From positions 1 to 46,853 of the forward strand of contig CANQSB010000026.1 in NCBI GenBank assembly GCA_947626435.1: DNA of 46,853 bases. Direction: 5' to 3'. The DNA is from an uncultured Lachnospiraceae bacterium. Lineage in GTDB: Bacteria > Bacillota > Clostridia > Lachnospirales > Lachnospiraceae. Both the position numbers and the translations under genes were made by a program. The first letter of the stretch is position 1. The number at the start of each line of letters is the position of its first letter. The notes under the pieces were generated by a model. That model worked only from the letters and a program-made list of their open reading frames with translations, did no database searches and had not been told where the DNA came from. Positions 1,799 to 38,188 of the stretch are shown one piece after another.

Positions 1799-1930
1799 AT
1801 ATGTGTTCTAAACCGTTCGAATTTAGTCAAAATATATAAAAACGCGGCTAGGCGCTGCGCGAGACGCCGCTTATTTTATATATTTTGCCTAAATTCTATG
1901 TTGTCGAATAAAATTTTGAAAACACCTAAT
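1799..1930 (-). repeat. palindromic repeat, copy A
   Basis: Copy of the family described under findings, in reverse orientation. It has the conserved arms AATTTAGTCAAAATATATA and TATATATTTTGCCTAAATT around a GC-rich core (GCGGCTAGGCGC...GACGCCGC), plus the outer ends TGTGTTCTAAACCGTTCG and CTATGTTGTCGAATA. It fills the gap between the DUF5058 gene and its downstream partner. The flank reads CACCTAATAC, as beyond copies C and H. Confidence 0.9.
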
Positions 1931-1935
1931 ACGAC

Positions 1936-2643
1936 TTATGACACCAGCGAAACCCACAAAACGCTTGAGCACATGGAAATTATCAGTGCCGCCGCCATGG
2001 TGAAGTTGCCAAGCCATGGCACTTTCTTGGACGCAATTCCGCAGAGAACTGTGACGACAAGGCTGGTGACGAGCGTCATCGTGGTCGGAATATCTGTAAA
2101 CAGCAGAATGGGGAGATAGACAGCAAACATTCCAAGGAAAAATACGCCCGACAAAATCTGTCCCCAATCGCTTGAGCCGCTCGCTTTCATCAAACCCGTA
2201 GAATATTTGCGTGCAACAAACACTACGGCAAGGGGCTCAATCATGACTCCAATCGTCATAACCATGATAATTGCCCCGAATATATCCGCATTTGATGTCA
2301 AAACCTCAGAAAGCGCAATCCCCATGCCGTCAGCCGTATACTGCGACGCCATGACTTCATAGGAAAGCGAGCCTATTACCGACAGCCTCCACCAAGGCCA
2401 CGCCGCCCCCAAGGACACGCTCAAAGTGACGAATCCCAAAAGCACGGCGATACTTGGCACGATGGCCGTAGTGATGCTTGCTTTCACTACATTTTTGATT
2501 GTTTCTTTGCTGATGCCAAGCTCCTGACAGCGTTTTGACGCGCGCAGAGCGCTGACTACCGCGATACAAACGACAAAGATAAGTCCGATAGCTATTAATA
2601 TGTACAGCAGCGGACTGTTTGCAACCACAGAACCTTGAACCAT
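1936..2643 (-). CDS. DUF5058 family membrane protein
   Basis: 235 residues from the chosen ATG. The longer frame starts at 2658, but its first codon sits inside the GGAGGG ribosome site that serves the ATG at 2643 (7-base spacing). The protein opens MVQGSVVANSPLLYILIAIGLIFV, then has RASKRCQELGISKETIKNVVKASITTAIVPSIAVLLGFVTLS and WPWWRLSVIGSLSYE. This matches the DUF5058 family of Firmicutes membrane proteins as I remember it. About six hydrophobic segments are visible. Function is unknown. It is co-directional with the membrane gene at 1028-1774, and the pairing suggests a transporter for a small organic substrate, which is inference only. Confidence 0.8.
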   Translation of the reverse strand: MVQGSVVANSPLLYILIAIGLIFVVCIAVVSALRASKRCQELGISKETIKNVVKASITTAIVPSIAVLLGFVTLSVSLGAAWPWWRLSVIGSLSYEVMASQYTADGMGIALSEVLTSNADIFGAIIMVMTIGVMIEPLAVVFVARKYSTGLMKASGSSDWGQILSGVFFLGMFAVYLPILLFTDIPTTMTLVTSLVVTVLCGIASKKVPWLGNFTMAAALIISMCSSVLWVSLVS

Positions 2644-2687
2644 ATTAAATCCCTCCATTTTCTATCATAATTGATAAATATAATTTT

Positions 2688-2730
2688 ATAAAAAAGCAAG
2701 GGTGTCCCCATTAGAAAACACCCTTGTTTC
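2688..2730 (-). terminator. intrinsic terminator after the GH3-like gene
   Basis: Minus strand: ACAAGGGTGT and ACACCCTTGC pair around a loop and are followed by TTTTTTATAAAA. It closes the glyA/GH3 transcription unit before the DUF5058 pair begins. Confidence 0.8.
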
Positions 2731-2773
2731 CCTCATTGTTACCGCCTGCCATTTGCAAGTGACAGGCAGATAT

Positions 2774-5364: not shown

Positions 5365-5649
5365 ATCCTACCTCCATAAAATTTATTTTTAATAATTAGC
5401 TTCCCTTACTTTTTATCTCCATTACGCAGCACCAACACCATAGCCCGAGCAGGGGCATACATCCCCTGAAGACCCTTGGGAAGCGTCGGCACTTAGCGAG
5501 ACAAGCTGTAAAAGCGTAGCTCCTTTTACAGCGCCGCCGAGCTTAGTGTCCGCTACGCTTCCCACAGAGCGCAAGCGAGTCTGAAGGGGATGTGTGCCCC
5601 TGCTCGGGCGACCAGTTGCCACCACCACCACACACACAGTTTGTCTTAT
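5365..5649 (-). promoter_or_regulatory. structured leader upstream of glyA (about 167-base hairpin)
   Basis: From the promoter at 5650-5678 the glyA transcript would carry a leader of about 280 bases. Its centre, 5443-5609, folds as one long hairpin. The outer arms 5443-5467 and 5585-5609 match at 24 of 25 positions (GCCCGAGCAGGGGC and complement). Inner arms around 5479-5497 and 5543-5563 pair GGGAAGCGT and ACACTAAGC-type segments. A perfect terminal hairpin lies at 5505-5532 (GCTGTAAAAG / CTTTTACAGC). The start of the leader is a GTGTGTGTGG(TGG)n tract. It could be a riboswitch-like element, a stable small RNA or a mobile palindromic repeat. No known riboswitch consensus was recognised. Confidence 0.65.
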
Positions 5650-11175: not shown

Positions 11176-11307
11176 CCGCCTCCTCCTACCCTTATCATCA
11201 GCAATAGGCATTTGCGAAACTCTATTCTTTTGATTACTATTGGGTAAATTTCTGACGCCTGCACTTATCATCAGACATAGGCATTTACGAAACTCTATTC
11301 AACAACA
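11176..11307 (+). repeat. two left-end fragments of the palindromic repeat; left part of copy B
   Basis: After the GH28 stop, a stretch of about 37 bases (TTATCATCAG..ATAGGCATTT.CGAAACTCTATTC) occurs twice, at about 11190-11228 and 11263-11300. Both match the outer left end of the palindromic repeat family. The first is a solo end. The second continues AACAACA to 11307 and then changes abruptly, whereas the rest of that repeat resumes at 17256 (CATAGAATTTAGG). The integrative element therefore split this copy. Confidence 0.75.
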
Positions 11308-11370
11308 CATATCATTTCTTTTAAAAATTTTTCCTGTATTTATGCGGCTTTTCGGCTGTTTTTCGCTCTT

Positions 11371-11395
11371 AACCCCATTTTTTAACCCCATTTTT
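11371..11395 (+). repeat. direct repeats near left end, candidate integrase arm sites
   Basis: AACCCCATTTTT at 11371 and again at 11384, 13 bases apart. Similar ACCCCATTTC and AACCCCAACCCC motifs lie near the right end (17148-17184). Occurrence at both ends of an element with a tyrosine integrase suggests Int binding. Confidence 0.45.
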
Positions 11396-11404
11396 CAAAA
11401 TTGA

Positions 11405-11644
11405 TTACCAGTCTTTTATCATGTCTGTTTTCTTTGGCTTTTTTTCTTTTGCCACAGGAATTAAAGAGGGATTGTATTTTTCACAAAAAGCCCTAACTGT
11501 TTTCAAGTGATTGTATTTAGGTTGACTGTCAACTAATTCTTTAAACCACTTCTTATCACTAGGAGCATTTTGTGAAATATGGTTCACCATATCCTCAAAT
11601 GTTATTTTCTTAAATGGTACATTAAACTTTGCTTTATTTGCCAT
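11405..11644 (-). CDS. small hypothetical protein
   Basis: 79 residues, basic (about 18 Lys), starting MANKAKFNVPFKKITFEDMVNHISQNAP and ending KKPKKTDMIKDW. The ATG is preceded by an AGAGAGGGT-like site on the minus strand. The amphipathic middle (WFKELVDSQPKYNHLKTVRAFCEKYNPSLI) looks helical. It could be a small DNA-binding or accessory factor of the element, but no family was recognised. It is the leftmost gene of the integrative element. Confidence 0.6.
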   Translation of the reverse strand: MANKAKFNVPFKKITFEDMVNHISQNAPSDKKWFKELVDSQPKYNHLKTVRAFCEKYNPSLIPVAKEKKPKKTDMIKDW

Positions 11645-11728
11645 AAGCGGAAACCCTCTCTTTCTTTGTTAATTTCTATTGTTTTATATAAAATAACATA
11701 TTCTAAAAGTAAAATCAATAGATTTCTA

Positions 11729-11929
11729 TTAGTCCTTCATAAATTCTATAATATCGCATATATCACAATCAAGAATATTACATAATGTATTAAGAATACT
11801 TACTTTTACATTTTCATTCCGCTTTAACCTTGTAATTTGCGCTGGACTTATACCATATTCATTTATTAACTTGTATTGTGAAATGTCTTTCTCTCTCATT
11901 ACTCCCCATAGCTTATCAAATACTATCAT
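11729..11929 (-). CDS. small Xre-type helix-turn-helix regulator
   Basis: 66 residues, essentially only a Cro/CI-type DNA-binding domain: LWGVMREKDISQYKLINEYGISPAQITRLKRNENVKVSILNTLCNILDCDICDIIEFM. The helix-turn-helix is QYKLINEYGISPAQITRLKRNE. This is the YozG-like small regulator type common in mobile elements of Firmicutes. It diverges from the membrane-protein gene at 12047, and the region between holds AACCGCTA inverted repeats that are natural operator candidates. Start: GAGAGG a few bases upstream of the ATG. Confidence 0.9.
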   Translation of the reverse strand: MIVFDKLWGVMREKDISQYKLINEYGISPAQITRLKRNENVKVSILNTLCNILDCDICDIIEFMKD

Positions 11930-11965
11930 TTTATTATACCTCTCTTTCTGCTTTCTACTTGAATA

Positions 11966-12008
11966 ATAACCGCTAATGGTATATACTTGAATTACCGCTA
12001 GCGGTTAT
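11966..12008. promoter_or_regulatory. candidate operator: inverted AACCGCTA repeats
   Basis: ATAACCGCTA at 11966-11975 is perfectly repeated in inverted orientation at 11999-12008. A second half-site in the middle makes a local perfect palindrome ACCGCTAGCGGT at 11994-12005. The group lies between the divergent Xre gene and the membrane-protein gene, as expected for autoregulation. The same core recurs in the noncoding region 15275-15520. Confidence 0.55.
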
Positions 12009-12046
12009 GGTTATGCAAAGAGGATAGAAAAGAGAGGTTAAAAGGA

Positions 12047-12490
12047 ATGAAAAGGAAGTTTTTAAAAGTTTTAGGTTTTGCGGCAATAGCTTTTGTTATG
12101 GCTTGTTTAGTGCTTGTATTGTTTTTATATCTGTTAGATAAGGACAGTAAAGAATATATAAAGCAATTAGAGGAAAACAGCATGGAACAACAGCAAACTG
12201 TAGACAAAAGCTCTAGTAACTCTTATATCGGAAAATGGCAATATGACACAGGGAAAGGAAATATAATAACATTTACTTTTGAAAAAGGTGGTATAGGAAA
12301 ATATGAGCAATCAACAAAAGAGGGTAGCGCATGGGAATTTACATATGAGATAAAAGAAGATGTAATTGTATTAACAAGAAATGCAATAGGTACATCATTT
12401 ATTGCAAGCTATGAGTTAAATTGTGATGGTACAGAATTAAATTATGTTAGTGGAGATATGCCACAAGGAACATATAAAAAAATAGAATAA
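12047..12490 (+). CDS. small membrane-anchored protein of unknown function
   Basis: 147 residues. Residues 1-5 are basic and 8-30 form a single hydrophobic segment (LGFAAIAFVMACLVLVLFLYLL). A charged Gln/Ser stretch follows. A C-terminal domain of about 90 residues has a beta-rich pattern (YIGKWQYDTGKGNIITFTFEKGGIGKYEQSTKEG...YELNCDGTELNYVSGDMPQGTYKKIE), resembling small extracellular lipocalin-like domains of Firmicutes. There is no lipobox, so it is predicted to be membrane-tethered with the domain outside. It is the first rightward gene of the integrative element, followed by its own terminator. Function is not recognised; a surface or immunity role would be guesswork. Confidence 0.7.
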   Translation: MKRKFLKVLGFAAIAFVMACLVLVLFLYLLDKDSKEYIKQLEENSMEQQQTVDKSSSNSYIGKWQYDTGKGNIITFTFEKGGIGKYEQSTKEGSAWEFTYEIKEDVIVLTRNAIGTSFIASYELNCDGTELNYVSGDMPQGTYKKIE

Positions 12491-12511
12491 TAATAGACAA
12501 CAGGAAACAAT

Positions 12512-12545
12512 AAAGGCTATCTGTAAAAGGATAGCTTTTTCTTTG
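12512..12545 (+). terminator. intrinsic terminator
   Basis: GGCTATC and GATAGCT pair around TGTAAAAG and are followed by TTTTTCTTT. It separates the membrane-protein gene from the resolvase gene, which has its own promoter. Confidence 0.8.
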
Positions 12546-12678
12546 CGGTTTATATGTGTAGAGCGGAAAAGACTATAGTAAAATCAGAGTATACTTGAAT
12601 TTTACAATCGGAAACCGCCCAATGGGTGTAAAATCAAAGTCAGTTTTCTATTTATTTTACAAAATGTAAAGAAAGTAT

Positions 12679-12707
12679 TTGACTTTATTTTTACTTTATG
12701 ATATTAT
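12679..12707 (+). promoter_or_regulatory. sigma-A promoter of the resolvase gene
   Basis: TTGACT (12679-12684), 17-base spacer, TATTAT (12702-12707), 46 bases before the resolvase ATG; ribosome site AGAGAGG at 12738-12744. Confidence 0.75.
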
Positions 12708-12752
12708 ATATACATAAGAAATCAATAGAAAACATAAAGAGAGGTATATAAA

Positions 12753-13322
12753 ATGAAAATAGCTTATGTAAGAGTATCAACAGTAGAACAAAATGAACAA
12801 AGACAAGTAGTAGCTTTAGAAAAGCATGGAATAGAAAAATGGTATATAGAAAAAGTTAGTGGAAAAGATACTAATAGACCAAAATTAAAAGAAATGCTTG
12901 ATTTTGCTAGAGAGGGAGATACAATATATATACATGACTTTAGCAGACTTGCAAGAAGTACAAAAGATTTATTAGATATAGTTGAACAATTAAATAATAA
13001 AGGTATTCATCTAGTAAGCAATAAAGAGAATATAGACAGCAGTACACCAACAGGAAAGTTAATGCTTACTATGATAGGAGCAATAGCAGAATTTGAAAGG
13101 CAAAACTTGTTAGAGCGGCAAAAAGAGGGAATTGCCCTAGCAAAAGAACAAGGCAAGTTTAAAGGCGGTCAAGTGAAAAAGATTGATGATACAGTATTTA
13201 ATAATCTGCTAGAGCAATACCAAACAAGAGCAATCACTAAAAAAGAGTTTGCGGAAAAGCTGAAAGTTAGCAGACCGACACTAGATAAGCTATTAAAAGA
13301 AAAGGCGGAACAGGCGGTGTAA
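12753..13322 (+). CDS. serine recombinase (resolvase/invertase family)
   Basis: 189 residues, typical of small serine recombinases. The catalytic domain opens MKIAYVRVSTVEQNEQRQ with nucleophile Ser9. It contains the HDFSRLARSTKDLLDIV active-site helix (Arg residues) and IDSSTPTGKLMLTMIGAIAEFERQNLLERQKEGIALAKEQGKFKG, the long E-helix. A short C-terminal helix-turn-helix (ITKKEFAEKLKVSRPTLDKLLKE) should bind the site. It may resolve multimers or invert DNA. It coexists with a tyrosine integrase in the same element, so it is probably not the integrase. Own promoter at 12679-12707; a 52-residue gene follows 45 bases downstream. Confidence 0.95.
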   Translation: MKIAYVRVSTVEQNEQRQVVALEKHGIEKWYIEKVSGKDTNRPKLKEMLDFAREGDTIYIHDFSRLARSTKDLLDIVEQLNNKGIHLVSNKENIDSSTPTGKLMLTMIGAIAEFERQNLLERQKEGIALAKEQGKFKGGQVKKIDDTVFNNLLEQYQTRAITKKEFAEKLKVSRPTLDKLLKEKAEQAV

Positions 13323-13367
13323 TAGCCGCTTGACCGCCGCCAAAACCACAAAGGGAGTGATTTTAAT

Positions 13368-13526
13368 ATGCTGAATATGAGTATGGATAACAATATAAAT
13401 AGCTTGCCTTTTCTTTTGTATATGCAAGAGCAAGTGCAAAAAGAAAAAGAAAAGGATAGCGGAAACGAAAATCAAAATACTATTTGGAGAGCGGACAGCC
13501 CACCACTATCCCACAATCAAGATTAA
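13368..13526 (+). CDS. 52-residue protein of unknown function
   Basis: A short frame with a strong ribosome site (AAAGGGAGTG, about 7 bases before the ATG) directly after the resolvase gene and before a terminator, so probably translated from the same mRNA. The sequence opens MLNMSMDNNINSLPFLLYMQEQ, then has a Lys/Glu run (KEKEKDSGNENQN) and ends WRADSPPLSHNQD. It is hydrophilic with no membrane segment and no family recognised. Confidence 0.6.
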   Translation: MLNMSMDNNINSLPFLLYMQEQVQKEKEKDSGNENQNTIWRADSPPLSHNQD

Positions 13527-13558
13527 AAAAATATTTATCCCGAATTATACCGCCACCA

Positions 13559-13600
13559 TAAAAAGAGGTTGCTATATATTAACAAACTCTTTTTTTATTT
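13559..13600 (+). terminator. intrinsic terminator
   Basis: AAAAGAGGTT and AAC..CTCTTTT pair around an AT loop and are followed by TTTATTTG. It ends the resolvase transcription unit. Confidence 0.7.
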
Positions 13601-14269: not shown

Positions 14270-14271
14270 TT

Positions 14272-17130: not shown

Positions 17131-17255
17131 CTCCTAAAGAGTATTATACCCCATTTCAACCACATATTTCAACCCCAACCCCAAAAATATTTTGGGGATA
17201 AAAATAGCGGAAAACCTCGATTTTACAGGCTTTCCGCTAAAAAATCTACTCAAAC
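17131..17255. other. right end of the integrative element
   Basis: Between the integrase start and the repeat boundary lie ACCCCATTTC and AACCCCAACCCC motifs (17148-17184), a palindrome CCCCAAAAATATTTTGGGG (17178-17196), and a stem formed by AGCGGAAA (about 17206) and TTTCCGCT (about 17232). These are candidate integrase sites and an int promoter or operator region. Confidence 0.5.
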
Positions 17256-17378
17256 CATAGAATTTAGGCAAAATATATAAAATAAGCGGCGTCTTGCAGC
17301 TTGCTGCACCTAGCCGCGTTTTTATATATTTTGACTAAATTCGGACGGCTTAGAACACATTTAGCAATTACCTATCAC
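17256..17378 (+). repeat. palindromic repeat, copy B (right part of a split copy)
   Basis: Begins at CATAGAATTTAGG, runs through AATAAGCGGCGTC, the TGCAGCTTGCTGCA core, CTAGCCGCG, TATATATTTTGACTAAATTC and the outer end CGGACGGCTTAGAACACATTT. Its left outer part is at 11263-11307, on the other side of the integrative element. Confidence 0.9.
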
Positions 17379-19639: not shown

Positions 19640-19791
19640 AATAACCACTTGCGAAACTTTATTCGACAACATAGAATTTAGGCAAAATATATAAAATAAG
19701 CGGCGTCTTGCAGCTTGCTGCACCTAGCCGCTTTTTTATATATTTTGACTAAATTCGGCCGGTTGAGAACACATTTCACAATCACCTAATA
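19640..19791 (+). repeat. palindromic repeat, copy C
   Basis: Complete copy: outer left TTGCGAAACTTTATTCGACAACATAG, arms AATTTAGGCAAAATATATA and TATATATTTTGACTAAATT, short loop type (TGCAGCTTGCTGCACCTAG), outer right CGGTTGAGAACACATTTCACAA followed by TCACCTAATAC. It lies between the upstream side of the GH106-like gene and the downstream side of htpG. Confidence 0.92.
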
Positions 19792-24856: not shown

Positions 24857-24919
24857 CACCCGACAAATGGCATTACCACAAACTGTTTTATAGGCTCCGT
24901 TTTTTATATTTATAGACGT

Positions 24920-25078
24920 TTGCGAAACTCTATTCGACAACATAGAATTTAGTCAAAATATATAAAATAAGCGGCGTCTTGCAGCTTGCTGCACCGATGT
25001 ACTGTATCTGCGATACAGTACATTGACGCGATTTTTATATATTTTGACTAAATTCGGACGGCTTAGAACACATTCGTA
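24920..25078 (+). repeat. palindromic repeat, copy D
   Basis: Between the MBOAT and SGNH genes. Complete outer ends (TTTGCGAAACTCTATTCGACAACATAG and CGGACGGCTTAGAACACATT) and conserved arms. The loop carries the longer type, with a nested palindrome TGTACTGTATC-TGC-GATACAGTACA. Confidence 0.92.
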
Positions 25079-25105
25079 ATTATTAATAAAATAAGAGGGA
25101 TTTTA

Positions 25106-26077: not shown

Positions 26078-26099
26078 CTTTCGTTATTTGCGGTCACAT

Positions 26100-27431
26100 T
26101 CATTTTGGGAAGATGATTGTGACCGTTGTTCCTTTATTTATGTCACTGTTCAGCTTGATTTCCGCGTCATGCAGCCTTGCGGCATGCTTTACTATGGAAA
26201 GTCCGAGTCCTGTGCCCCCAAGCTCCTTTGAGCGGCTTTTGTCCACTCTGTAAAAACGCTCAAAGACATGCTCCTGATGCTCCGGCGGTATGCCTATGCC
26301 TGTGTCCGCCACTACCAGCATCAAAAAGTCCATGTTATTTTTTACCGATACCGTAACCGTGCCGCCCGCGCGGTTGTATTTTATGGCGTTGTCGCAAAGG
26401 TTGTGTATTATGCTTTGCAGCAGGCGCGGTATCCCGTATATTACGGCGCTTTCGCCGGAAAGCGTAATTTCAACCTGCGCTTTCCGTGCAGCCTGATACA
26501 GTGCTTTTACTTCATCTGATGCCAATTCATATAAATCCACGTCCTCTCGTTTCATGCCCACAGCGCCCTCGTCAAGCTGCGACAGCCCGATAATATCCTC
26601 GACAAGCGCAATCATGCGCTGCGCCTCCGTGTTTATGCGCGCTATGAAGTCCGCTTTGTCTTCCTCCTTTACCATATTGTTTGACAAAAGCTCCGCGCAG
26701 CCTGCTATGGTGTGCAGCGGGGTTTTTAGCTCGTGTGAAACATTGGCTGTAAACTCCCTGCGCAGGCGTTCATTCTGCTTTAGCTCGTCATTCTGCTGCC
26801 TTATCTGGCGCTGCTGCGCGTCTATACGCCTCAAAAGCGGTGAAAGCTCGTCATAGCCTTCATTGCTGAGGGGGTCCTCAAGGTTCAGGCTATTAAGCGG
26901 CGCGACGATTTTTTTCGCAAGCCGCATGGCGAATATAAGTGCGAAAATGACTGCGCATATAAAAATAATGCTTATGGTATGCAGCATGCCTAAAAGCAGG
27001 GTGAGCAGCGTGTTCTGCAGGACTGAAAGCCTTATCACAGTGCCGTCCGGAAGCTTTTTGGCGTAGTAAAGCGAACGCTCCATAAGCGTCACTGAATAGC
27101 GCGAGCTTTCGCCTGTGCCTGTCGAAAGCGCTTCTTTTATTTCCTCGCGTTCAAGGTGGTTTTCCATTTCATCAGCGCTTGACTGATTGTCGTACAGCAC
27201 AGCGCCGTCTGTGTCGATCCATGTAATCCTGTATGTCTGCTCATTAAGCCCGTCAAAATACTTTAGCCCTTCGTCGGAAACGGCTTTGGCGGTAAGCTCC
27301 GTCTGCGTTCTAAGCTGCTCTTTTTGCACGCCCGAAAAGTAGTCATACAGCACGCCCATAAACAGCACGACTGACGCGAGGAATACACCCAGCGCTACAA
27401 AGCAGATTGAATGAAATATGCGTTTTGTCAT
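26100..27431 (-). CDS. phoR: phosphate-responsive sensor histidine kinase
   Basis: 443 residues. Membrane segments at about 7-29 and 141-168 flank an extracellular sensing region of about 110 residues. A HAMP-like linker, a coiled coil (about 195-222), and then the HisKA box FTANVSHELKTPLHTIAG with His233 follow. The ATPase domain has N-box NLCDNAIKYN, G1 VADTGIGIPPEHQ, F-box FERFYRVDKSRS and G2 GGTGLGLSIVKH. Its position after phoB and next to a complete pst-phoU operon identifies it as PhoR. A palindromic repeat lies between phoB and phoR. Confidence 0.92.
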   Translation of the reverse strand: MTKRIFHSICFVALGVFLASVVLFMGVLYDYFSGVQKEQLRTQTELTAKAVSDEGLKYFDGLNEQTYRITWIDTDGAVLYDNQSSADEMENHLEREEIKEALSTGTGESSRYSVTLMERSLYYAKKLPDGTVIRLSVLQNTLLTLLLGMLHTISIIFICAVIFALIFAMRLAKKIVAPLNSLNLEDPLSNEGYDELSPLLRRIDAQQRQIRQQNDELKQNERLRREFTANVSHELKTPLHTIAGCAELLSNNMVKEEDKADFIARINTEAQRMIALVEDIIGLSQLDEGAVGMKREDVDLYELASDEVKALYQAARKAQVEITLSGESAVIYGIPRLLQSIIHNLCDNAIKYNRAGGTVTVSVKNNMDFLMLVVADTGIGIPPEHQEHVFERFYRVDKSRSKELGGTGLGLSIVKHAARLHDAEIKLNSDINKGTTVTIIFPK

Positions 27432-27472
27432 AATGCGATGCCATTCTCCTTAATATTTCTTTTTTATGGTAA

Positions 27473-27632
27473 TTGTGAAATGTGTTCTAAACCGTCCGAA
27501 TTTAGGCAAAATATATAAAAATCGCGTCAATGTACTGTATCGCAGATACAGTACATATGTGCAGCAAGCTGCGAAACGCCGCTTATTTTATATATTTTGC
27601 CTAAATTCTATGTTATCGAATAAAACTTCGCA
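27473..27632 (-). repeat. palindromic repeat, copy E
   Basis: Reverse orientation, between phoB and phoR. Outer ends GTGAAATGTGTTCTAAACCGTCCG and CTATGTTATCGAATAAAACTTCGC, conserved arms, and the long loop type with nested TGTACTGTATC-GCA-GATACAGTACA. Confidence 0.92.
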
Positions 27633-27653
27633 TACACTTGCAATGTCTTGCTT

Positions 27654-28337
27654 TTAAACTTTATTAGTTCTCTTGCAAAATCTGTACCCTACACCGCGCA
27701 CAGTTTCGATATAATCGCCGTACTTGCCAAGTTTTGTGCGCAGCATGCCGATATGCACATCTACTGTCCTTGTTTCACCTATATAATCTGTGTCCCACAC
27801 GCTTTGCAAAAGTTGCTCGCGGGTAAAGACTAACCCTGTGTTTTCCATAAAAATTTTTAGCAGCTCATATTCCTTTAGGGTAAGCTGCACTTGCGCGCCG
27901 TCTACAGTGACCGTATGCCCGCCAGCATCAAGCTCCAAGCCGCCTATTCGCAGGATTTTAGCTGAACCGCCGTTTTTCGCTCGCCGCAGGACCGCACGCA
28001 CGCGCGACACCATTTCCATCATTCCAAAGGGCTTTGCAAGATAGTCGTCCGCGCCCAAGTCAAGCCCTATCACCTTGTCATATTCCGTACCTTTGGCTGT
28101 CGCCATAATTATCGGTATTTCGGCGGTAGCGGCGTTTTGGCGCAGACGCTTTAAAATCTCAATGCCGTCCTCGCCGGGCAGCATAATGTCAAGCATGATA
28201 AGCTCAGGCTTGCCGCCTTTAAGCGCCTCAAACAACTCGCTTCCACGAGTAAAGCCCTGCGCCTCAAAACCCGCTGAGCCTAAAGCGTAAATCATCAAAT
28301 CCCGTATTCCGCTGTCATCTTCTACGCAAAAAATCAT
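27654..28337 (-). CDS. phoB: phosphate regulon response regulator
   Basis: 227 residues from the ATG at 28337, which has AAGGAGG six bases upstream; the longer frame starts inside the leader. Receiver domain: MIFCVEDDSGIRDLM, phosphoacceptor LIMLDIMLPGEDG (Asp50), IIMATAKGTEYDKVIGLDLGADDYLAKPF. OmpR-type winged helix at about 130-225: LTLKEYELLKIFMENTGLVFTREQLLQSVWDTDYIGETRTVDVHIGMLRTKLG. Under low phosphate it should activate pstS and other Pho genes. It has its own promoter (28441-28469) separate from pst-phoU. Confidence 0.93.
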   Translation of the reverse strand: MIFCVEDDSGIRDLMIYALGSAGFEAQGFTRGSELFEALKGGKPELIMLDIMLPGEDGIEILKRLRQNAATAEIPIIMATAKGTEYDKVIGLDLGADDYLAKPFGMMEMVSRVRAVLRRAKNGGSAKILRIGGLELDAGGHTVTVDGAQVQLTLKEYELLKIFMENTGLVFTREQLLQSVWDTDYIGETRTVDVHIGMLRTKLGKYGDYIETVRGVGYRFCKRTNKV

Positions 28338-28382
28338 TGCAAACCTCCTTGCGGGCAATAATATCTATTATTAATTACAAAA

Positions 28383-28432
28383 ACCTTTCCGCAACATAGA
28401 ATTTAATCAACCTTTCACAAACAGCTAATCAA
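28383..28432 (+). repeat. collapsed fragment of the palindromic repeat
   Basis: CCGCAACATAGAATTTAATC is followed by CTTTCACAAACAGCTAAT, i.e. a left end joined to a right-end-like sequence without the core. It lies in the phoB 5' leader. Confidence 0.5.
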
Positions 28433-28440
28433 TATCTATC

Positions 28441-28469
28441 AATTATAACGCACCTATATTCATATTTCA
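28441..28469 (-). promoter_or_regulatory. sigma-A promoter of phoB
   Basis: Minus strand: TTGAAA (28469-28464), 17-base spacer, TATAAT (28446-28441). Confidence 0.8.
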
Positions 28470-28499
28470 ATAATCCGCTCAAACAGCAATCCAACTCAA

Positions 28500-28635
28500 A
28501 TATATTCATATATTCAGAAAAACGCCGCCTTTGCATTCAAATACATTCAGGAAAAATGCCACTCTTGCATTCAAATACATTCAGGAAAAACGCCACACTT
28601 GCATTCAAATACATTTAGGAAAAACGCCGCCCTTG
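28500..28635. repeat. tandem array of a 34-bp unit, four copies
   Basis: Three nearly identical contiguous units at 28534-28567, 28568-28601 and 28602-28635 (CATTCAAATACATTCAGG followed by AAAAACGCCRCMCTTG), plus a more diverged first unit at 28500-28533. There are no spacers, so it is not CRISPR. The last unit runs into a perfect hairpin at 28619-28643 (GAAAAACGC / GCGTTTTTC). A single unit with the same hairpin overlaps the porG stop at about 41845-41882. Confidence 0.85.
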
Positions 28636-28652
28636 CGTTTTTCTAAAAATTT

Positions 28653-28733
28653 AGAAACACTTAGGCTGCGTATTTTGCAGCCTTAGTGTTTCTTAATTTT
28701 TTTTTCTTAATTTTTTTTCTTAATTTTTTTTGC
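28653..28733. terminator. strong hairpin after phoU with triplicated T-tract
   Basis: Arms 28653-28669 and 28677-28693 pair over 17 positions with one mismatch (AGAAACACT.AGGCTGC). On the plus strand it is followed by TTCTTAATTTTTTTT three times with a period of about 14. The last copy forms the end of phoU (its Lys-Lys-Asn and stop). On the minus strand it ends the pst-phoU message before the phoB promoter. Confidence 0.7.
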
Positions 28734-29361
28734 CAGTAATCGAAAACAGCACCCATTCCGCGATGTTCGCCGCATGGTCGCCAATTCGTTCAAAATATTT
28801 GGCAATCATAAGCAAGTCAAGCGCATACTCTCCGTCCGACGGATTTTGCGCGATAACTCCGATAAGGCTTTTTCTCACGCTCCCGAAATAATTGTCCACG
28901 ACATCGTCCGACGCGATAACCTCCTCGGCAGCCGCCACGTCCTGCTTTACATAAGCATTCACGCTGTCTGTCACCATTTTTATCGCAGCAGTCGCCATCT
29001 CGCGGATTTGTATGCTTTCTTCTGGCACGCGCCCGCCAAGATATACTATAATTTCCGCTATATCCTCCGCCTGGTCGCCTATGCGCTCCATATCAGTCAC
29101 CATTTTAAGCGCCGCCGAAACCTGTCTCAAATCGCCCGCGACAGGCTGCTGCTGCAGTAAAAGCCTAAGACATATCGCCTCAATATTTCTCTCTTTTTCG
29201 TCAATCTCCCTGTCAAGCGCCGCCACCTCTGCCGTTTCCTCGCCACCGCCCTGAGAAAGCGCCGATGCTACAAGTTCTATCACCCTTTCGCAGAGTTCAC
29301 CCATTTCCATAAGTTCCTGTTTAAGCAATGCAAGCTGTTCATTAAATTTATCCCTCATCAT
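28720..29361 (-). CDS. phoU: phosphate transport regulator
   Basis: 213 residues, the normal length. Two helical-bundle repeats each have the PhoU metal motif: [51 protein letters not shown], and later [30 protein letters not shown], with the (E/D)xxxD clusters ERIGDQAED and ERIGDHAAN. It connects the Pst transporter with the PhoR kinase at the cytosolic membrane face. Its ATG overlaps the pstB stop by 4 bases (translational coupling). The last three codons and stop lie in a slippage-prone poly-A/T repeat. Confidence 0.96.
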
Positions 29362-30113
29362 CCAAACCTCCCCGTAATATAGTCCTCCGTCCGCTTGTCG
29401 GCAGGCTGCGAAAACAATCTCTCCGTATCGCCATACTCAATCAACTCACCCAGCAGGAAAAACGCCGTCCTGTCGGATATGCGCACAGCCTGCTGCATAT
29501 TGTGGGTAACTATGATTATCGTGTACTTTTCCTTTAGCTGCATCGCCAAGTCCTCTATTTTTGACGTGGAAATAGGGTCAAGTGCACTGGTAGGCTCATC
29601 CATCAGCAGCACGCGCGGCTTGACCGCAAGCGCCCTCGCAATGCAGAGCCTCTGCTGCTGCCCGCCCGAAAGTCCCAGCGCGTTCTTTTTCAGCCTGTCC
29701 TTTACCTCGTCCCATATTGCCGCGTCCCTAAGCGACCTTTCCACAATATCGTCAAGCTTTACGCGGCTCGTAATCCCATGTGTCCTCGGTCCATACGCTA
29801 TGTTGTCGTAAATGCTCATCGGAAACGGATTTGGCTTTTGGAACACCATTCCCACCTCTTTTCTGAGCATATTCACATCTACCGACGGAGCAAAAATATC
29901 CTCCCCGTTATAACAAATTTCACCTGTTATTTTTACCGACGGCACTAAATCATTCATTCTGTTAAGCGTCTTTAAAAATGTCGATTTCCCGCAGCCCGAC
30001 GGTCCTATCAGCGCTGTAATATTCTTCTCAGGAATAGACATATTTATATCTTTAAGCGCCTGAGCTTTTCCGTACCACAGGCACATATCCTTTACAGTGA
30101 TAATGTCACTCAT
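29358..30113 (-). CDS. pstB: phosphate ABC transporter ATP-binding protein
   Basis: 251 residues. Walker [10 protein letters not shown] (37-45), Q-loop [21 protein letters not shown] (typical PstB text), signature [16 protein letters not shown], Walker [15 protein letters not shown]-loop [14 protein letters not shown]. It energises high-affinity phosphate import with PstA and PstC. The stop overlaps the phoU start; a long palindromic repeat with a nested insert separates it from pstA. Confidence 0.98.
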
Positions 30114-30150
30114 AAGATTCTCCCTTCTGCAATTTTTTAATCAAGTGTTT

Positions 30151-30389
30151 ACCGCACTCTACTCAATAATGTAGAATTTAGGCAAAATATATAAAATAAG
30201 CAGCGTCTTGCAGCTTGCTGCACCTAGTGTGCTGTACCGTTGATATTTAGCATAATTCGAATACTTATAATAATGATAAGGTAAAGCTTTGTTCGTTTTT
30301 ATATCATGCTAAGTATGAACAGTACAGTACACTAGCTGCGTTTTTATATATTTTGACTAAATTCGGACGGCTTAGAACACATTTCGCAG
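30151..30389 (+). repeat. palindromic repeat, copy F, with nested palindromic insert
   Basis: Between pstA and pstB. Outer parts and arms as in other copies (AATAAGCAGCGTC, TGCAGCTTGCTGCA, GACTAAATTCGGACGG). The loop is enlarged by a second palindrome of about 112 bases: arms beginning CTAGTGTGCTGTAC and ending GTACAGTACACTAG match at about 26 of 30 positions around an AT-rich centre. It is the largest copy in the window. Confidence 0.9.
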
Positions 30390-30397
30390 CAGCTCTG

Positions 30398-31255
30398 TCA
30401 GCCATTCCTTTTCCTAAAATATTTCCCCACAACCACAGCCAACATATTTATCCCCAAAGTCAACACCATAAGTATCGCCGCTATCGCAAACGCAACCCCA
30501 AACTCCCCCTGCTCCTTCGCATACACATAAAGCGCTACCGTAAGCGTCGCCCCCGCGTTCCCAAGCCCGCCTATAAAGCCATTTAAGGCATGCGCAAACC
30601 CCGCCGTAAACAGCAGCGCCGCCGACTCGCCTAAAATCCTGCCCGAGCACAAAATACAGCCCGTCACAATCCCGTCCACGCACCCAGGGAGCACCACAGT
30701 GCGTATTACGCGCCATTTCCCCGCTCCAAGCCCAAACGCGCCCTCCCTGTAGCTTTGCGGCACAGTTTTAAGGCTCTCCTGCGTCGTCCGCATTATAGTA
30801 GGCAAATTCATCACCACAAGCGTAAGCGCTCCCGCAAGCAACGATGTTTTCATATTAAAGAACTCACAGAACACAAGCATTCCCACAAGTCCGTATATGA
30901 TTGACGGAATGCCCGAAAGCGTTTCCGCCGCGTACTCGATTGCAGCGACTACCTTTTTATTTTTTGCATACTCCGTTAGATACACAGCCGCGCCCGCTCC
31001 AAACGGTATCACAAGCACAAGCGACGCTATTATTATGTAAACCGTACTCAGTATATCAGGCAAAATCCCTATCTGCCCCGACAAGTAGCTTGGCTTGGTG
31101 GACAGCAGCGCCCATGAAATATTCGGTATGCCCTTAATCAGCACATAGCACACCATAAAAAGCACCAGCGCACACGTAATCACAGCACAGACCACCATCA
31201 GCACACGCATAACGCATATATATGCCCTTCTTTTAGCGGAAACCTGACCATTCAT
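30398..31255 (-). CDS. pstA: phosphate ABC transporter permease PstA
   Basis: 285 residues from the ATG at 31255, which has ACGGAGG nine bases upstream. The longer open frame (to 31324) runs into a palindromic repeat and is rejected. About six membrane segments. The cytoplasmic coupling loop reads MRTTQESLKTVPQSYREGAFGLGAGKWRVIRTVVLPGCVDGIVTGCILCSGRILGESAALLFTAG, typical of PstA. PstA-style YLSGQIGILPDILSTVYIIIASL and IPFGAGAAVYLTEYA near the start. Forms the channel with PstC. Confidence 0.97.
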   Translation of the reverse strand: MNGQVSAKRRAYICVMRVLMVVCAVITCALVLFMVCYVLIKGIPNISWALLSTKPSYLSGQIGILPDILSTVYIIIASLVLVIPFGAGAAVYLTEYAKNKKVVAAIEYAAETLSGIPSIIYGLVGMLVFCEFFNMKTSLLAGALTLVVMNLPTIMRTTQESLKTVPQSYREGAFGLGAGKWRVIRTVVLPGCVDGIVTGCILCSGRILGESAALLFTAGFAHALNGFIGGLGNAGATLTVALYVYAKEQGEFGVAFAIAAILMVLTLGINMLAVVVGKYFRKRNG

Positions 31256-31287
31256 TACACTAAACCTCCGTATAATTTTCGCAAACA

Positions 31288-31420
31288 TTTGCAAAACCCT
31301 TTTCATAACGTAGAATTTAGGCAAAATATATAAAATAAGCAGCGTCTTGCAGCTTGCTGCACCTAGCTGCGTTTTTATATATTTTGACTAAATTCGGACT
31401 CATTAGACTATCCTTCGCAA
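31288..31420 (+). repeat. palindromic repeat, copy G
   Basis: Between pstA and pstC. Left end TTGCAAAACCCTTTTCATAACGTAG, arms conserved, short loop type, right end CTAAATTCGGACTCATTAGA slightly diverged, followed by TTCGCAA. Confidence 0.9.
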
Positions 31421-31432
31421 ATATCTGCTTTC

Positions 31433-32305
31433 TTACCGTTTCTTCTTCAAGAAAAAATTCAACGCCGCATTTATCAGCATAATAAACAAAAACAATACCA
31501 ACGCGATAGAAAACAACGCCTCCCGCTGCAGACCGCTCGCATACGCCATCTCGCTTGCCACCGCCGTAGTCAGAAAGCGCACGCTCTGGAAAAGCGACGG
31601 CATATTCGGCGCATTGCCCGAAACCATCATTACCGCCATCGCCTCGCCTATCGCCCTACCCACGCCAAGCACCACAGCCGCCGCGATACCGCTTTTTGCC
31701 GCTGGCACAGACACCCTGAAATACGTTTCCACAGGCGTAGCTCCAAGCGCAAGCGAAGCGTCCTCATACTCCCTCGGCACAGCCTCCAGCGCCGTAACCG
31801 ACACGTTTATTATCGACGGCAAAATCATAATCGCAAGCACTATTATCGCCGCAAAGAGGCTTGAACCGTCGGGAATGTGGAAAAGCCTGCGTATATTCGG
31901 CACTAATACGAGCATGCCCACAAGCCCGTAAACTACAGAAGGAATGCCCGCCAGAAGGCTCACCGCGCCTGACACCACAGACCTTACCGCAGGCTTGGCA
32001 AGCTTTGCCAAATACACCGCCGTCAAAAAGCCTACAGGCACTCCAATCACTATAGCACCCGCCGTCCCGTATATGCTCGTCATAATAAACGGCAGAATCC
32101 CAAACGACGGCGGATTTGCCGTAGAGCGCCAAGTGTCACCGCACACAAAATTAACTATGCCTATCTTACGTATCGCGGGCAGCCCCGCGATAACCAGATA
32201 AACCGTAATCAGCAGGACACAGCCCACAGTGACTAATCCAAGCAGCAGAAATACGGCATGCATTACCGCCTCAAATATTTTTCCAAATGCATTTTTATTC
32301 TTCAT
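31433..32305 (-). CDS. pstC: phosphate ABC transporter permease PstC
   Basis: 290 residues. It begins KNKNAFGKIFEAVMHAVFLLLGLVTVGCVLLITVYLVIAGLPAI (first membrane segment). It has PPSFGILPFIMTSIYGTAGAIVIGVPVGFLTAVYLAK and the coupling loop NVSVTALEAVPREYEDASLALGATPVETYFRVSVPAAKSGIAAAVVLGVGRAIGEAMAVMMVSGN, diagnostic for PstC. GGAGGG lies six bases before the ATG. It pairs with PstA in the membrane. Confidence 0.97.
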   Translation of the reverse strand: MKNKNAFGKIFEAVMHAVFLLLGLVTVGCVLLITVYLVIAGLPAIRKIGIVNFVCGDTWRSTANPPSFGILPFIMTSIYGTAGAIVIGVPVGFLTAVYLAKLAKPAVRSVVSGAVSLLAGIPSVVYGLVGMLVLVPNIRRLFHIPDGSSLFAAIIVLAIMILPSIINVSVTALEAVPREYEDASLALGATPVETYFRVSVPAAKSGIAAAVVLGVGRAIGEAMAVMMVSGNAPNMPSLFQSVRFLTTAVASEMAYASGLQREALFSIALVLFLFIMLINAALNFFLKKKR

Positions 32306-32420
32306 TGCAATCCCTCCATGCTGCCATATTCAAACTAACTTCTATTTTTTTATTTTTTAATTTAATGGGTTATCAAATTGCCAAATTGCCTATTCGACCA
32401 TAATTACCCAAAGCAAATCT

Positions 32421-32478
32421 TAAAAAATGCTGCCCTGAGTTTCCCTAAGCACTAGGAAATTATCAATATGCAGCTTTT
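32421..32478 (-). terminator. attenuator-like hairpin between pstS and pstC
   Basis: Minus strand: GCTGC pairs with GCAGC at the base, with inner TTTCC / GGGAAA, followed by ATTTTTTAAG. It probably ends part of the pstS transcripts so that the binding protein is made in excess over the permease genes. Confidence 0.6.
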
Positions 32479-32484
32479 ATTGTT

Positions 32485-33312
32485 TTATTTTGCTGCCACA
32501 ACACCCGCGCTTGAAATAAGCTCCACAGCATCAGCCGACGTTGCAAAATCAAAGAACTTCTGGGCGGCTGCTGAAAGCTTTGTGTCATTTTTTGTGACAA
32601 GCACAAACGGACGCTGTATCACATATGAGCCGTCCTTTACCGTAGCCTCATTCGGCGCAACCCCTCCGACTGTCAAAGCCTTTATGCTGTCGCTTACCGC
32701 CGAAAGCGAAGCGTAACCGATTGCGTCAGGGTTTTGCGACACTGTAGTGATTACGTCACCTGTAGATGTAAGCTCCTGCCTGTACTGGCACTCGTCCTCC
32801 GTGCCTGTAATCGACTCAAAGCCATCTCTCGTGCCGCTGCCCGCCTCGCGCCCAATCAAGACTATCTGCGCGTCATTGCCGCCGACCTCGGACCAGTTTG
32901 TAATCTCGCCCTTGTAAATCTTTGCGATTGTGTCCAAGTCCAAATCATCCACAGCGTTTTCATTGTTTACTATCACAGCTATACCATCATAGGCAAGCAC
33001 AGTTTCCGTAAGCCCGCCCGCCTTTTCATCGTCCTTTAAGCTCCTGCTCGAAAGCCCTATGTCGCATCGTCCCTCCTGTACAGCCTGTATGCCCGAGCCT
33101 GAGCCTGTGGGGTTGTATGTAAATGTGATATTTTTGTTCTCCCCCATAAACGCCTCACCGAGCACGCCGATTACCTCCTCCATAGAGGTAGAGCCATCAG
33201 TTGATACAGTACCCGCCTCGCTCTTTGAGCAACCCGCAAGCATTGCAAAAGCCGCTGCCGCTACAGCCACCGTAAATACAAGTCCTTTCGTGTTTCCTGT
33301 TTTCATTTCCAT
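32485..33312 (-). CDS. pstS: phosphate-binding lipoprotein
   Basis: 275 residues. Lipoprotein signal with lipobox LAGC (Cys28), so anchored outside the membrane. Phosphate-binding segments: VSTDGSTSMEEV, YNPTGSGSGIQAV, DIGLSSRSL, and GREAGSGTRDGFESI. GEITNWSEVGG is a typical PstS string. First gene of the pst-phoU operon; GGAG four bases before the ATG (an in-frame ATG two codons later is also possible). TTTACA-type direct repeats upstream suggest PhoB control. Confidence 0.97.
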   Translation of the reverse strand: MEMKTGNTKGLVFTVAVAAAAFAMLAGCSKSEAGTVSTDGSTSMEEVIGVLGEAFMGENKNITFTYNPTGSGSGIQAVQEGRCDIGLSSRSLKDDEKAGGLTETVLAYDGIAVIVNNENAVDDLDLDTIAKIYKGEITNWSEVGGNDAQIVLIGREAGSGTRDGFESITGTEDECQYRQELTSTGDVITTVSQNPDAIGYASLSAVSDSIKALTVGGVAPNEATVKDGSYVIQRPFVLVTKNDTKLSAAAQKFFDFATSADAVELISSAGVVAAK

Positions 33313-35221: not shown

Positions 35222-35311
35222 TATCTAAATTAGATTTTTTCTCACTTATATGTATTTTATTAGCAATTTTACTGGTACAATATGCAATCTATCCCTACTT
35301 TCTGACAAAAA

Positions 35312-35366
35312 GAAACCCTTGTAAAAATCCAAAGCTTTGAAAAAGCCTGAATTTTACAAGGGCTCT
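35312..35366 (-). terminator. intrinsic terminator of clpB
   Basis: Minus strand: CCCTTGTAAAA pairs with TTTTACAAGGG, with an inner AAAGCTTT-containing stem, followed by TTTCTTTTT. Confidence 0.8.
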
Positions 35367-35398
35367 CCCTTTTAAGTGCGGAAAGACAAAATCCATCA

Positions 35399-37993
35399 TT
35401 ATTTCCGCCGCGCCGTCAGCTCCTGCTTGCCAGCATCAAGCTCTATCAGTATGGTATCGCCCATCCTTACCTCCTCCGAAAGTATCAGCTTTGCGGCAAG
35501 CGTCTCTACATATTTCTGGATATAACGCTTGAGCGGCCTTGCACCATATACAGGGTCGTAACCGTTTTCCACGATAAAGCGCTGCGCCTGCTCGTCTATC
35601 TCTATGCTAAGCTCCCTATCGGCAAGCCTTGCATTAATGTCATTCAGTATAAGCTTGATAATGCCTCCGATATTGTCCTTTGTAAGCGGCTTAAACATTA
35701 TTATCTCGTCAAGGCGGTTCAAAAACTCAGGTCTGAAATGGTTCCGCAGCTCGCCCATGACCATATCATGCGCGGACTGTTCTATCTCGCCGTTAGTGTC
35801 TATACCCTCCAACAGATAATGCGCACCTATATTTGAAGTCATTATCAGTATCGTGTTTTTAAAGTCCACAGTGCGCCCCTGCGAATCCGTAATGCGCCCG
35901 TCGTCAAGCACCTGCAGAAGAATGTTGAACACATCAGGGTGAGCCTTCTCGACCTCGTCAAAAAGCACTACGCTGTAAGGCTTTCTGCGCACTGCCTCCG
36001 TAAGCTGCCCGCCCTCATCATATCCGACATATCCGGGAGGCGCTCCGATAAGCCTTGATACGGAATGTTTCTCCATATATTCGCTCATGTCAATGCGCAC
36101 CATATTTGTCTCGTCATCAAAGAGCGACGCCGCCAGCGCTTTGGCCAGTTCAGTCTTGCCCACGCCCGTAGGCCCTAAAAATAGGAACGAGCCAATCGGC
36201 TTTTCAGGATCTTTTATGCCCGCCTTTGAACGAATTATCGCCTCTGTCACCTTTGTGACACCTTCATTTTGTCCGATAACCCGCTTGTGCAGCTCCTCGT
36301 CAAGATGAAGCGTCTTGCTGCGCTCGCTCTCATTGAGCTTTGCCACAGGAATGCCAGTCCAGCGCGATATAATCTTTGCGATTTCCTCCTCAGAAACGCT
36401 CTCATGCACAAGCGACATTTCACGCGCGTTTACCTGCTGCTCCTCAGCTTCAAGCTGACGCCTAAGTTCAGGCAGCTTTCCGTAGCTTAATTCCGCTGCC
36501 TTTTCGAGATTGCCCTCGCGCTGCGCTATCTGTATCTGGTTGTTCAGCTCCTCTATGTCCTCCCTGAGCTTTGAAAGACGCTCAACACACGCCTTCTCAT
36601 TGTCCCACTGGGCTTTCCTGTTGGCAAACTCCTCCTTTTGCCCCGCAAGCTCAGCCTGCAGCGCTTCAAGCCTTTCCTGGCTCAAATGGTCCTCCTCTTT
36701 TTTGAGGGCGGCGACTTCTATCTCCATCTGCATAATGCGCCTCTGCAGCTCGTCGAGTTCGGCGGGAAGCGAATCAAGCTCCGTCTTTATCATCGCGCAC
36801 GCCTCGTCAACAAGGTCTATCGCCTTGTCGGGCAGAAATCTGTCCGAAATGTACCTGTTTGACAGCACCGCCGCACTCACAAGCGCGTTGTCCATTATCT
36901 TCACGCCATGAAATACCTCATAACGCTCCTTTAACCCTCTCAAAATGCTGATCGTATCCTCCACCGTCGGCTCGTCGACCATCACAGGCTGAAAACGCCG
37001 CTCCAAAGCAGGGTCCTTTTCAATATACTGTCTGTACTCGTCAAGCGTAGTCGCACCTATGCAGTGCAGCTCGCCTCTTGCGAGCATTGGCTTCAGCATA
37101 TTTCCCGCGTCCATCGCGCCTTCGCTCTTGCCCGCGCCGACTATAGTGTGCAGCTCATCTATGAAAAGTATGATCTGACCGTCGCTGTTTTTCACATCTT
37201 CCAGCACAGCCTTAAGACGCTCCTCAAACTCTCCGCGATACTTCGCTCCCGCCACAAGCGCGCCCATATCAAGCGAAAATACCTTCTTGTCTTTAAGCCC
37301 CTGCGGCACGTCGCCCCTCACGATACGCTGCGCAAGCCCTTCCACAACCGCCGTCTTACCGACGCCTGGCTCGCCTATCAGCACGGGATTATTCTTCGTC
37401 TTTCTGGAAAGTATGCGGATAATGTTCCTTATCTCATTGTCCCTGCCGATTACAGGATCAAGCTTCTGGTTTCGCGCTCTTTCCACCAAATCCTGCCCAT
37501 ACTTTTCAAGCGTGTCGTATGTCGCCTCCGGATTATCACTCGTAACACGCTGATTGCCCCTCACCTCGGAAAGCGCCTTCAAAAAACGCTCCCTAGTAAT
37601 ACCATATTCCCTGAAAATCTCCTTTATCTCCTTATTAGGATTTTGGAGCATTGCAAGGAAAAGATGCTCAACCGACACATACTCGTCACCCATGCGCTTC
37701 GCCTCATCCTCAGCGTTTATAAGCACTTTGTTGAGATACTGCCCAACATAAGGCTGTCCCCCCTGAACCTTCACCCTCTTTTCAAGCGCCTTTTGCACGC
37801 GCTCTAAAAAATATGAGCTGTTTATCTCCATTTTTTCCGTAAGTTTTAATATCAAACTGTCATCAATCGTAAGCAGAGCATAAAGCAAATGCTCCTGCTC
37901 AAGCTCCTGATTGCCATATTCCATAGCAATCTTCTCGCAGGCATTGACCGCCTCCATAGATTTCTGCGTAAATTTCTGTATGTTCATAGCCAT
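35399..37993 (-). CDS. clpB: protein disaggregase ClpB
   Basis: 864 residues, standard ClpB length. N-terminal Clp repeats (1-145); first ATPase Walker [14 protein letters not shown] (207-219); [16 protein letters not shown]; Walker [15 protein letters not shown]. The middle coiled coil (about 405-525, Glu/Leu-rich) distinguishes ClpB from other Clp ATPases. The second ATPase has [51 protein letters not shown]. It rescues aggregated proteins with DnaK, in the cytosol. Promoter TTGACA-16-TATAGT at 38254-38281, giving a 5' leader of about 250 bases that includes palindromic repeat H. Confidence 0.98.
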
Positions 37994-38009
37994 CCTCCTT
38001 TTATTTAAT

Positions 38010-38188
38010 ATACATTTGCTGCGAAACTCTATTCGACAACATAGAATTTAGGTAAAATATATAAAATAAGCGGCATCTTGCAGCTTGCTGCACATATGTA
38101 CTGTATCTGCGATACAGTACATTGACGCGCTTTTTATATATTTTGACTAAATTCGGACGGTTTAGAAAGCATTTCGCAACACCTAATA
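38010..38188 (+). repeat. palindromic repeat, copy H, in the clpB leader
   Basis: Complete outer ends (GCTGCGAAACTCTATTCGACAACATAG; CGGACGGTTTAGAAAGCATTTCGCAACACCTAATAC), conserved arms, long loop type with nested TGTACTGTATC-TGC-GATACAGTACA. Downstream of the predicted clpB promoter, so transcribed in the 5' leader. Confidence 0.92.

Follow-up and report, generated by a model that had tools for sequence, protein, structure and literature searches.

What are the palindromes that recur between the genes of a stretch of gut bacterial DNA, and how did they come to be there? The stretch (the window, 46,853 nt in full) is contig C26 of the 3.7-Mb, 98-contig draft genome of an uncultured Lachnospiraceae bacterium (G000; other genomes are denoted in the same way). 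A preliminary description had listed eight intergenic copies of a palindromic repeat with conserved arms and distinct outer ends, in both orientations, and had suspected a miniature inverted-repeat transposable element (MITE) from the likeness of the inverted extreme ends. Sequence matching recovered all eight copies, in place and with arms, outer ends and orientations as described, with two amendments: the core GCAGCTTGCTGC, held to be common to all, is present in seven, copy 1 having GCGCAGCGCC; and copy 2 lacks a left end of its own, being split by a 5.9-kb segment. The suspicion of a MITE proved sound, as we found 15-bp terminal inverted repeats (TIRs), target-site duplications (TSDs) of 10–11 bp, empty sites and an insertion sequence (IS) with the same two ends.

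We consider it highly probable that the repeats are a non-autonomous MITE family in which 15-bp TIRs surround a long hairpin, and that the family spread through the DDE transposase of an IS1182-like IS of ~1.77 kb, leaving TSDs of ~10–11 bp. The family is new, with an identified probable partner IS, and it fits the MITE description in the relevant parts of two reviews (PMC10969869, PMC2229807).

Terminal inverted repeats, target duplications and empty sites

Each copy consists, in reading direction, of a left TIR (TAGGCRTTTGCGAAA), ~15 nt, TAGAATTTAGNCAAAATATATAAAA, the loop, TTTTTATATATTTTGACTAAATTC, ~20 nt and a right TIR (TTTCGCAATTACCTA). Most copies are 141–176 bp long and the largest reach about 255 bp; the 60 copies listed of the 77 with both TIRs span 141–255 bp between TIR ends, below the ~500 bp that bounds MITEs, and at such a length a transposase gene of their own is not expected.

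First, the ends are specific. The 15-bp TIRs come in two forms, TAGGCRTTTGCGAAA and TAGGTAATTGCGAAA, each confined to its end of the element. Among the 169 hits of our model, 155 were full copies, and 77 of the 169 passed a filter for both ends, the remainder having decayed or unplaced ends.

Second, the flanks of these 77 copies match each other as direct repeats, with 46% identity at 10 bp (z 7.5) and 44% at 11 bp (z 6.6), where pairings shuffled among copies give 34%. A duplication of TA alone was rejected: at 2 bp the flanks are not clearly above the shuffles (z 1.7), and we therefore adopted a TSD of 10–11 bp.

Third, comparison of orthologous gaps between genomes, which the preliminary description had proposed, revealed empty sites in G028, one of them clean and with a target duplication: on contig C2 a copy lies between two CGATTGATAA repeats, and G028 has a single near-identical site. 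In G017, whose DNA is about 95% identical, all eight window copies are present, and in G028 six of the eight are missing from the corresponding gap. For copy 2 this absence was read from the orthologue in G017, and alignment is poor at the gaps of copies 1 and 4.

Fourth, the family is large and confined to few genomes. A sequence-only model gave 146 matches across G000, some of them one site counted on both strands. The search with a structure model, also proposed beforehand, found at least 118 hairpins in G000, at least 119 in G017, at least 85 in G028 and at least 50 in G026, at most 119 candidates being scored per genome. The genus search covered 38 genomes, several of them incomplete, and at E 1e-4 the remaining 34 gave no match. 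A blastn search over 60 genomes, G000 included, returned the same four carriers. When G000 was searched with copy 3, the 39 matches that followed had E values from 2.6e-57 to 2.5e-29, and the resemblance between copies is far from chance. With eight copies per 47 kb, the window exceeds the average density of the genome (at least 118 in 3.7 Mb) roughly fivefold, in keeping with the density first remarked on. In the GTDB collection a left-end pattern was found in two uncultured Lachnospiraceae assemblies, Lapin-028 bin75 and Lapin-012 bin1, apparently G017 and G028 themselves; copy 3 had no match in plasmid or phage records, and one right-arm pattern had none in viral contigs.

The early description allowed that the copies might match a known repeat family, or might align no better than chance outside the arms. 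An Rfam search of the window returned only tRNA above the gathering score and no repeat family, we did not find the family described in the open PMC literature, and the outer ends align well past the arms. The copies are intergenic, as had been claimed: within the 0.95 Mb of G000 examined, none of 96 full copies has its midpoint in an open reading frame (ORF) of at least 300 nt, such ORFs, from a simple ORF caller, covering 81% of that sequence.

A probable partner insertion sequence with the same ends

The route to the partner was a DDE_Tnp_1 match in G026, whose protein was then searched across the genus. In G026 the DDE transposase gene runs off a contig end, and its 3′ end lies ~150 bases inside an exact right-type TIR. 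The protein has relatives, many of them distant, in 14 of the 38 genomes. The closest of these belong to an IS of ~1.77 kb that encodes a 491-aa IS1182-like DDE transposase and carries the same two ends as the MITE, TAGGTAATTGCGAAA resembling the MITE right end and TAGGCGTTTGCGAAA the left end. Four two-ended copies are listed in Table 1. Besides these, G017 has two exact IS ends, both at contig ends, and G026 has seven stretches with exact IS ends, likewise at contig ends; joined in pairs by eye from their flanks, six of the seven make up insertions whose repeats measure 11, 12 and 14 bp. G028 holds weak IS remnants. Relatives on plasmids of Butyrivibrio proteoclasticus B316 and Roseburia sp. 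831b, with 81% and 68% protein identity, respectively, match exactly at one end and with a single mismatch at the other. The partner's transposase would have moved MITE copies through the matching ends.

The nearest NCBIfam model for the transposase is IS1182, at 71.3 bits against a family cut-off of 270, and because the score falls so far under this cut-off we call the partner IS1182-like only. Its DUF772 domain scores over the cut-off and its DDE_Tnp_1 domain just under it (19.6 versus 23).

Other candidates were set aside. None of the five DDE_Tnp_1 matches in G000 is flanked by a pair of these ends, Transposase_mut is absent in three genomes, and TIR pairs 0.45–4 kb apart, considered as an autonomous element, are apparently MITE ends or chance sites in the sequence examined.

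On plasmid pCY360 of B. proteoclasticus (L315), two IS ends adjoin with a 14-bp sequence between them that recurs at the far end of the plasmid, and the PLSDB table lists no gene over the transposase.

The hairpin and its variable loop

The copies were said to form a long stable RNA hairpin, and copy 8, which alone was folded, does so at −55.4 kcal/mol compared with −31.6 ± 3.8 kcal/mol for its shuffles. For the family as a whole, the alignment drew on four genomes and took in 91 of 92 short-loop copies, one with a longer loop being left out along with all copies whose loops exceed 46 nt. The stem comprises 27 pairs, with 96.7% of cells paired and two-sided change at 13 pairs. The covariation score of 0.248 exceeds the 0.119 of shuffles (0 of 500 reach it) and falls to 0.071 or less when the alignment is slid, although high covariation is favoured both by relatedness among the copies and by taking the structure from the very sequences under test, and the shuffle control can be exceeded without structure. 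Two-sided changes, such as A–T to G–C or T–A to C–G, account for 223 cells and one-sided changes for 30, summed per pair. Among 96 full G000 copies the arms fall into type A (AAAATATATAAAA; 68 copies) and type B (GAAATATACAAAA; 23), with five unclear. In the 149 of 155 full copies with parsable arms and loop, the polarity of the loop was kept without exception.

Comparison of orthologous copies showed that this loop often changes while the arms remain nearly constant. In 18 G000–G017 pairs the arms are identical at 928 of 955 positions (97%) and the outer ends at 876 of 1,013 (86%), the 200-bp flanks reaching 84% and 80% by global alignment, with some aligning badly. The loop belongs to a different length class in nine of the 18 pairs. 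Of the 18, at least two are doubtful orthologues (C6 5208 and L008, being doublets or of poor flank identity), both scored as unchanged. In the window, the loops of copies 1, 2 and 3 are the same in G017 and those of copies 4 to 8 differ; copy 7 has three loops in three species, all with one and the same unusual right end. The loops would have passed from one dispersed copy to another by gene conversion or by recombination over short tracts, by way of the near-identical arms.

A second small element that inserted into the loop may have added further loop classes. The 151-nt loop holds a second inverted-repeat element, beginning CTAGTGTRCTGYACC, which is found outside such loops as well (L149, about 5262; L225, about 5809), and the 27-nt palindrome of the 66–71-nt loop classes appears to resemble its ends.

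The hairpin can also be missing altogether. Two fixed sites are occupied by the full element in one species and, in another, by a 61-bp form that consists of the two ends alone; at one of these sites the full copy has a rearranged right flank. Further mini-elements of 53–65 bp are present. Independent jumps of these mini-elements were suggested by (near-)identical 61-bp forms that occur at several loci and are accompanied by good direct repeats, but with full and 61-bp forms sharing a site at two loci, in-place deletion, or regain, accounts for them equally well. Hairpins may have been lost by deletion between short direct repeats at the hairpin base.

Finally, full copies occur as direct doublets 5–27 bp apart, of which we counted 21 in the examined sequence, 11 of them in G000; several are orthologous to one another, leaving about 13 distinct sites. 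By exact motif, 20 of the 21 join an A-type to a B-type copy, in either order, and the remaining one is A plus B by eye, its B arms having one extra change. On C12 a further pair in direct orientation also reads as A plus B on inspection, with one copy below the length filter, and at L062 of G028 a full copy and an A fragment make A plus partial A. Two inverted neighbours lie 122 and 170 bp apart. It may be that A–A tandems are unstable, or that the A–B pair is a unit.

Alternative explanations

Several observations weigh against a MITE family spread by this IS, or against parts of the account just given. No IS match was found in G000, where the transposases are only distant ones; spread there must therefore be historical, or the IS has been lost or is unassembled. 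MITE and IS have in common only the terminal 15–16 bp, the repeats at the IS (11–14 bp) are slightly longer than the MITE optimum, and two of the four two-ended IS copies, in G029 and on C1 of G010, have none. The duplications at the window copies are decayed, and no perfect one was seen there. Arm conservation is partly built in, as an arm-based model found and parsed the copies. In 15 G000–G028 pairs, many of them doublets, just three loops clearly differ in length and two more in sequence. An excess of G–U over A–C cells (32 versus 9) suggests a folded plus-strand RNA, yet a single event may be counted many times over among related copies, so that the cells lack independence. Gene orientation around the copies is close to background: among the 90 G000 copies whose neighbours were both called, co-directional gaps hold 69 (42 in one orientation, 27 in the other), convergent gaps 13 and divergent gaps 8, compared with 297, 47 and 60 of the 404 gaps of more than 100 bp, the copies' own gaps included. 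A terminator scan of positions 17000–32500, with six copies inside, did not flag the hairpins and gave 17 terminator-like sites against 15.5 expected and 48 promoter-like sites against 29. With orientation near background and the hairpins not flagged, a terminator role has no positional support.

Within the MITE account, the hairpin could have been kept as a folded transcript, terminator-like or in mRNA processing, that is tolerated or useful between operons. A stronger proposal, compatible with that account, makes the hairpin the functional unit, as a structured RNA or a bidirectional terminator selected site by site, and the ends its vehicle. The greater identity of orthologous arms than of outer ends, the compensatory changes in the stem, the constant loop polarity and the persistence of hairpins in doublets whose TIRs look degenerate all argue for it, while the near-background orientation, the silence of the terminator scan, the absence of the hairpin at some orthologous sites and the free variation of the loops argue against; we hold it to be possible, and rather less than evenly supported.

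Compensatory change and arm conservation may also come from mutation, through template switching between the arms or gene conversion, with no selection for structure, which is equally compatible with a MITE origin. Template switching can create and keep perfect hairpins, as part of PMC8794818 sets out, and the preponderance of two-sided over one-sided cells counts in its favour. But template switching should also invert loops, and none of 149 is inverted, which argues against it as the whole story; nor is homogenisation of the arms general, because locus-specific arm variants survive, for example in copy 5. We regard this explanation, too, as less likely than not.

The changing loops and the doublets could be given a bolder interpretation, in which ends and arms form a fixed socket, the interior hairpin is a cassette swapped, lost or regained by an active, structure-dependent process, and the A/B tandems are a maintained composite unit. 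One conceivable agent is the IS1182-like transposase, a relative of which is reported to replace stem-loops; its target here would be the hairpin of the MITE. We think this improbable.

Another possibility concerns the left end, which contains TTGNCT, 18 nt and TAGAGT or TAAAGT reading outward and could act as a mobile promoter driving the next gene. One such site was flagged, in copy 4, and the left-end fragments at 28375 and 41401 sit just upstream of minus-strand genes; however, 42 of the 69 G000 copies in co-directional gaps have the driving orientation, little above half, and the proposal is quite doubtful.

A reading of the repeats as REP- or REPIN-like palindromes, mobilised by a RAYT (Y1 HUH) transposase or by another structure-dependent single-strand process, is very hard to credit despite their high copy number, intergenic position, palindromic form and paired copies. 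Against it stand 15-bp TIRs at distinct ends and TSDs, neither of which is known from REPs and REPINs, and an IS with a DDE transposase and the same ends.

Features of the window

Table 1. Copies and fragments of the MITE in the window (positions of the window) and two-ended copies of the probable partner IS in other genomes (lengths).
Feature	Position or length	Strand	Remarks
MITE copy 1	1793..1930	−	38-nt loop class; G028 orthologous gap without element
Left-end-only fragment	11205..11227	+	perfect TIR at its start
Displaced left end (TIR side) of MITE copy 2	11278..11307	+	
MITE copy 2	17236..17377	+	43-nt loop class; left end displaced to 11278–11307 by the 5.9-kb insert
MITE copy 3	19642..19791	+	43-nt loop class; G028 orthologous site without copy
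MITE copy 4	24912..25089	+	71-nt loop class, short class in G017; G028 gap without element
MITE copy 5	27463..27642	−	71-nt loop class, short class in G017; G028 has copy
Decayed left-end fragment	28375..28410	+	
MITE copy 6	30141..30395	+	151-nt loop with nested second element; 71-nt class in G017; G028 without copy
Nested second inverted-repeat element in copy 6 loop	30228..30331	+	CTAG at either side
MITE copy 7	31281..31429	+	one site, three different loops: G000, G017, G028
MITE copy 8	38012..38188	+	71-nt loop class, short class in G017; G028 without copy
Left-end fragment	about 41401..41426	+	96% over 26 nt
IS in G029	1771 bp, 491 aa		both ends, 0 mismatch to TIR pattern; no flanking repeat
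IS in G002	1765 bp		both ends, 0 mismatch to TIR pattern; perfect 11-bp TSD
IS in G010 C15	1092 bp, internally deleted		both ends, 0 mismatch to TIR pattern; 13-bp repeat
IS in G010 C1	1829 bp		one end mismatch, broken frame; no flanking repeat

The 5.9-kb segment inserted in the left end of copy 2 (11308–17239) is bounded by an imperfect direct repeat of ~18 bp, and encodes a tyrosine recombinase (15607–17130), a serine resolvase (12753–13322) and a NUMOD4/HNH protein (13700–14269). It is missing in G017, where its flanks are contiguous. Elsewhere in the window, positions 28–213, at the contig start, weakly match a transposase fragment (34% identity, E 1.9e-5); positions 5443–5609 hold an inverted repeat of 31 nt whose arms are separated by 105 nt; and at 28510–28735 a tandem repeat of 34 nt lies beside a dispersed repeat (about 28607–28735, GGAAAAACGCCGCCCTTGCGTTTTT-like) that has many matches in G028.

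Comparison with known systems

Gut Lachnospiraceae are shown here to harbour a densely spaced MITE family, for which a probable source of transposase is also identified, and in which loops often differ at orthologous sites of genomes ~5% apart and the surrounding arms barely change. It offers a natural system in which selection, template switching and exchange between dispersed copies can be weighed against one another in the evolution of long hairpins, and a reminder that covariation in repeat hairpins is not immediate proof of RNA function. Loop exchange at fixed sites and heterotypic doublets are apparently not met in the MITE literature consulted.

With REP/BIME and ERIC sequences the family shares high copy number and the form of extragenic palindromic repeats; REPs are not known to have TIRs or TSDs. 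Sequence comparison with these families was by the Rfam search of the window.

The partner transposase finds its best NCBIfam match, as given above, in IS1182. Palindromes are said to be the target of certain members of that family, in the part of PMC5678879 that deals with them. The same part of that source reports that IS1272 replaces a stem-loop and leaves no TSD. The Lachnospiraceae MITE and IS differ in having repeats of 10–14 bp, and because these duplications are present, replacement of the IS1272 type is not demonstrated for them.

Correia elements duplicate TA at their target. The TSD of the Lachnospiraceae MITE is 10–11 bp, and its loop classes differ at fixed sites, unlike those of Correia/NEMIS elements. 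In other respects the likeness to these Neisseria elements is close, as the passages on them in PMC2229807 describe small, multi-copy intergenic elements with TIRs, a terminal TA, a long RNA hairpin and forms with and without an internal part. Their TIRs are 24 bp long by the same passages, compared with 15 bp and end-specific here; the two are set apart by description, not by sequence.

A second parallel is with RUP of Streptococcus pneumoniae, likewise a MITE with a proposed transposase-bearing source, IS630-Spn1, according to the section on it in PMC2229807. RUP has TIRs of 9 bp by that section, and the partner of the Lachnospiraceae MITE is an IS1182-like DDE element.

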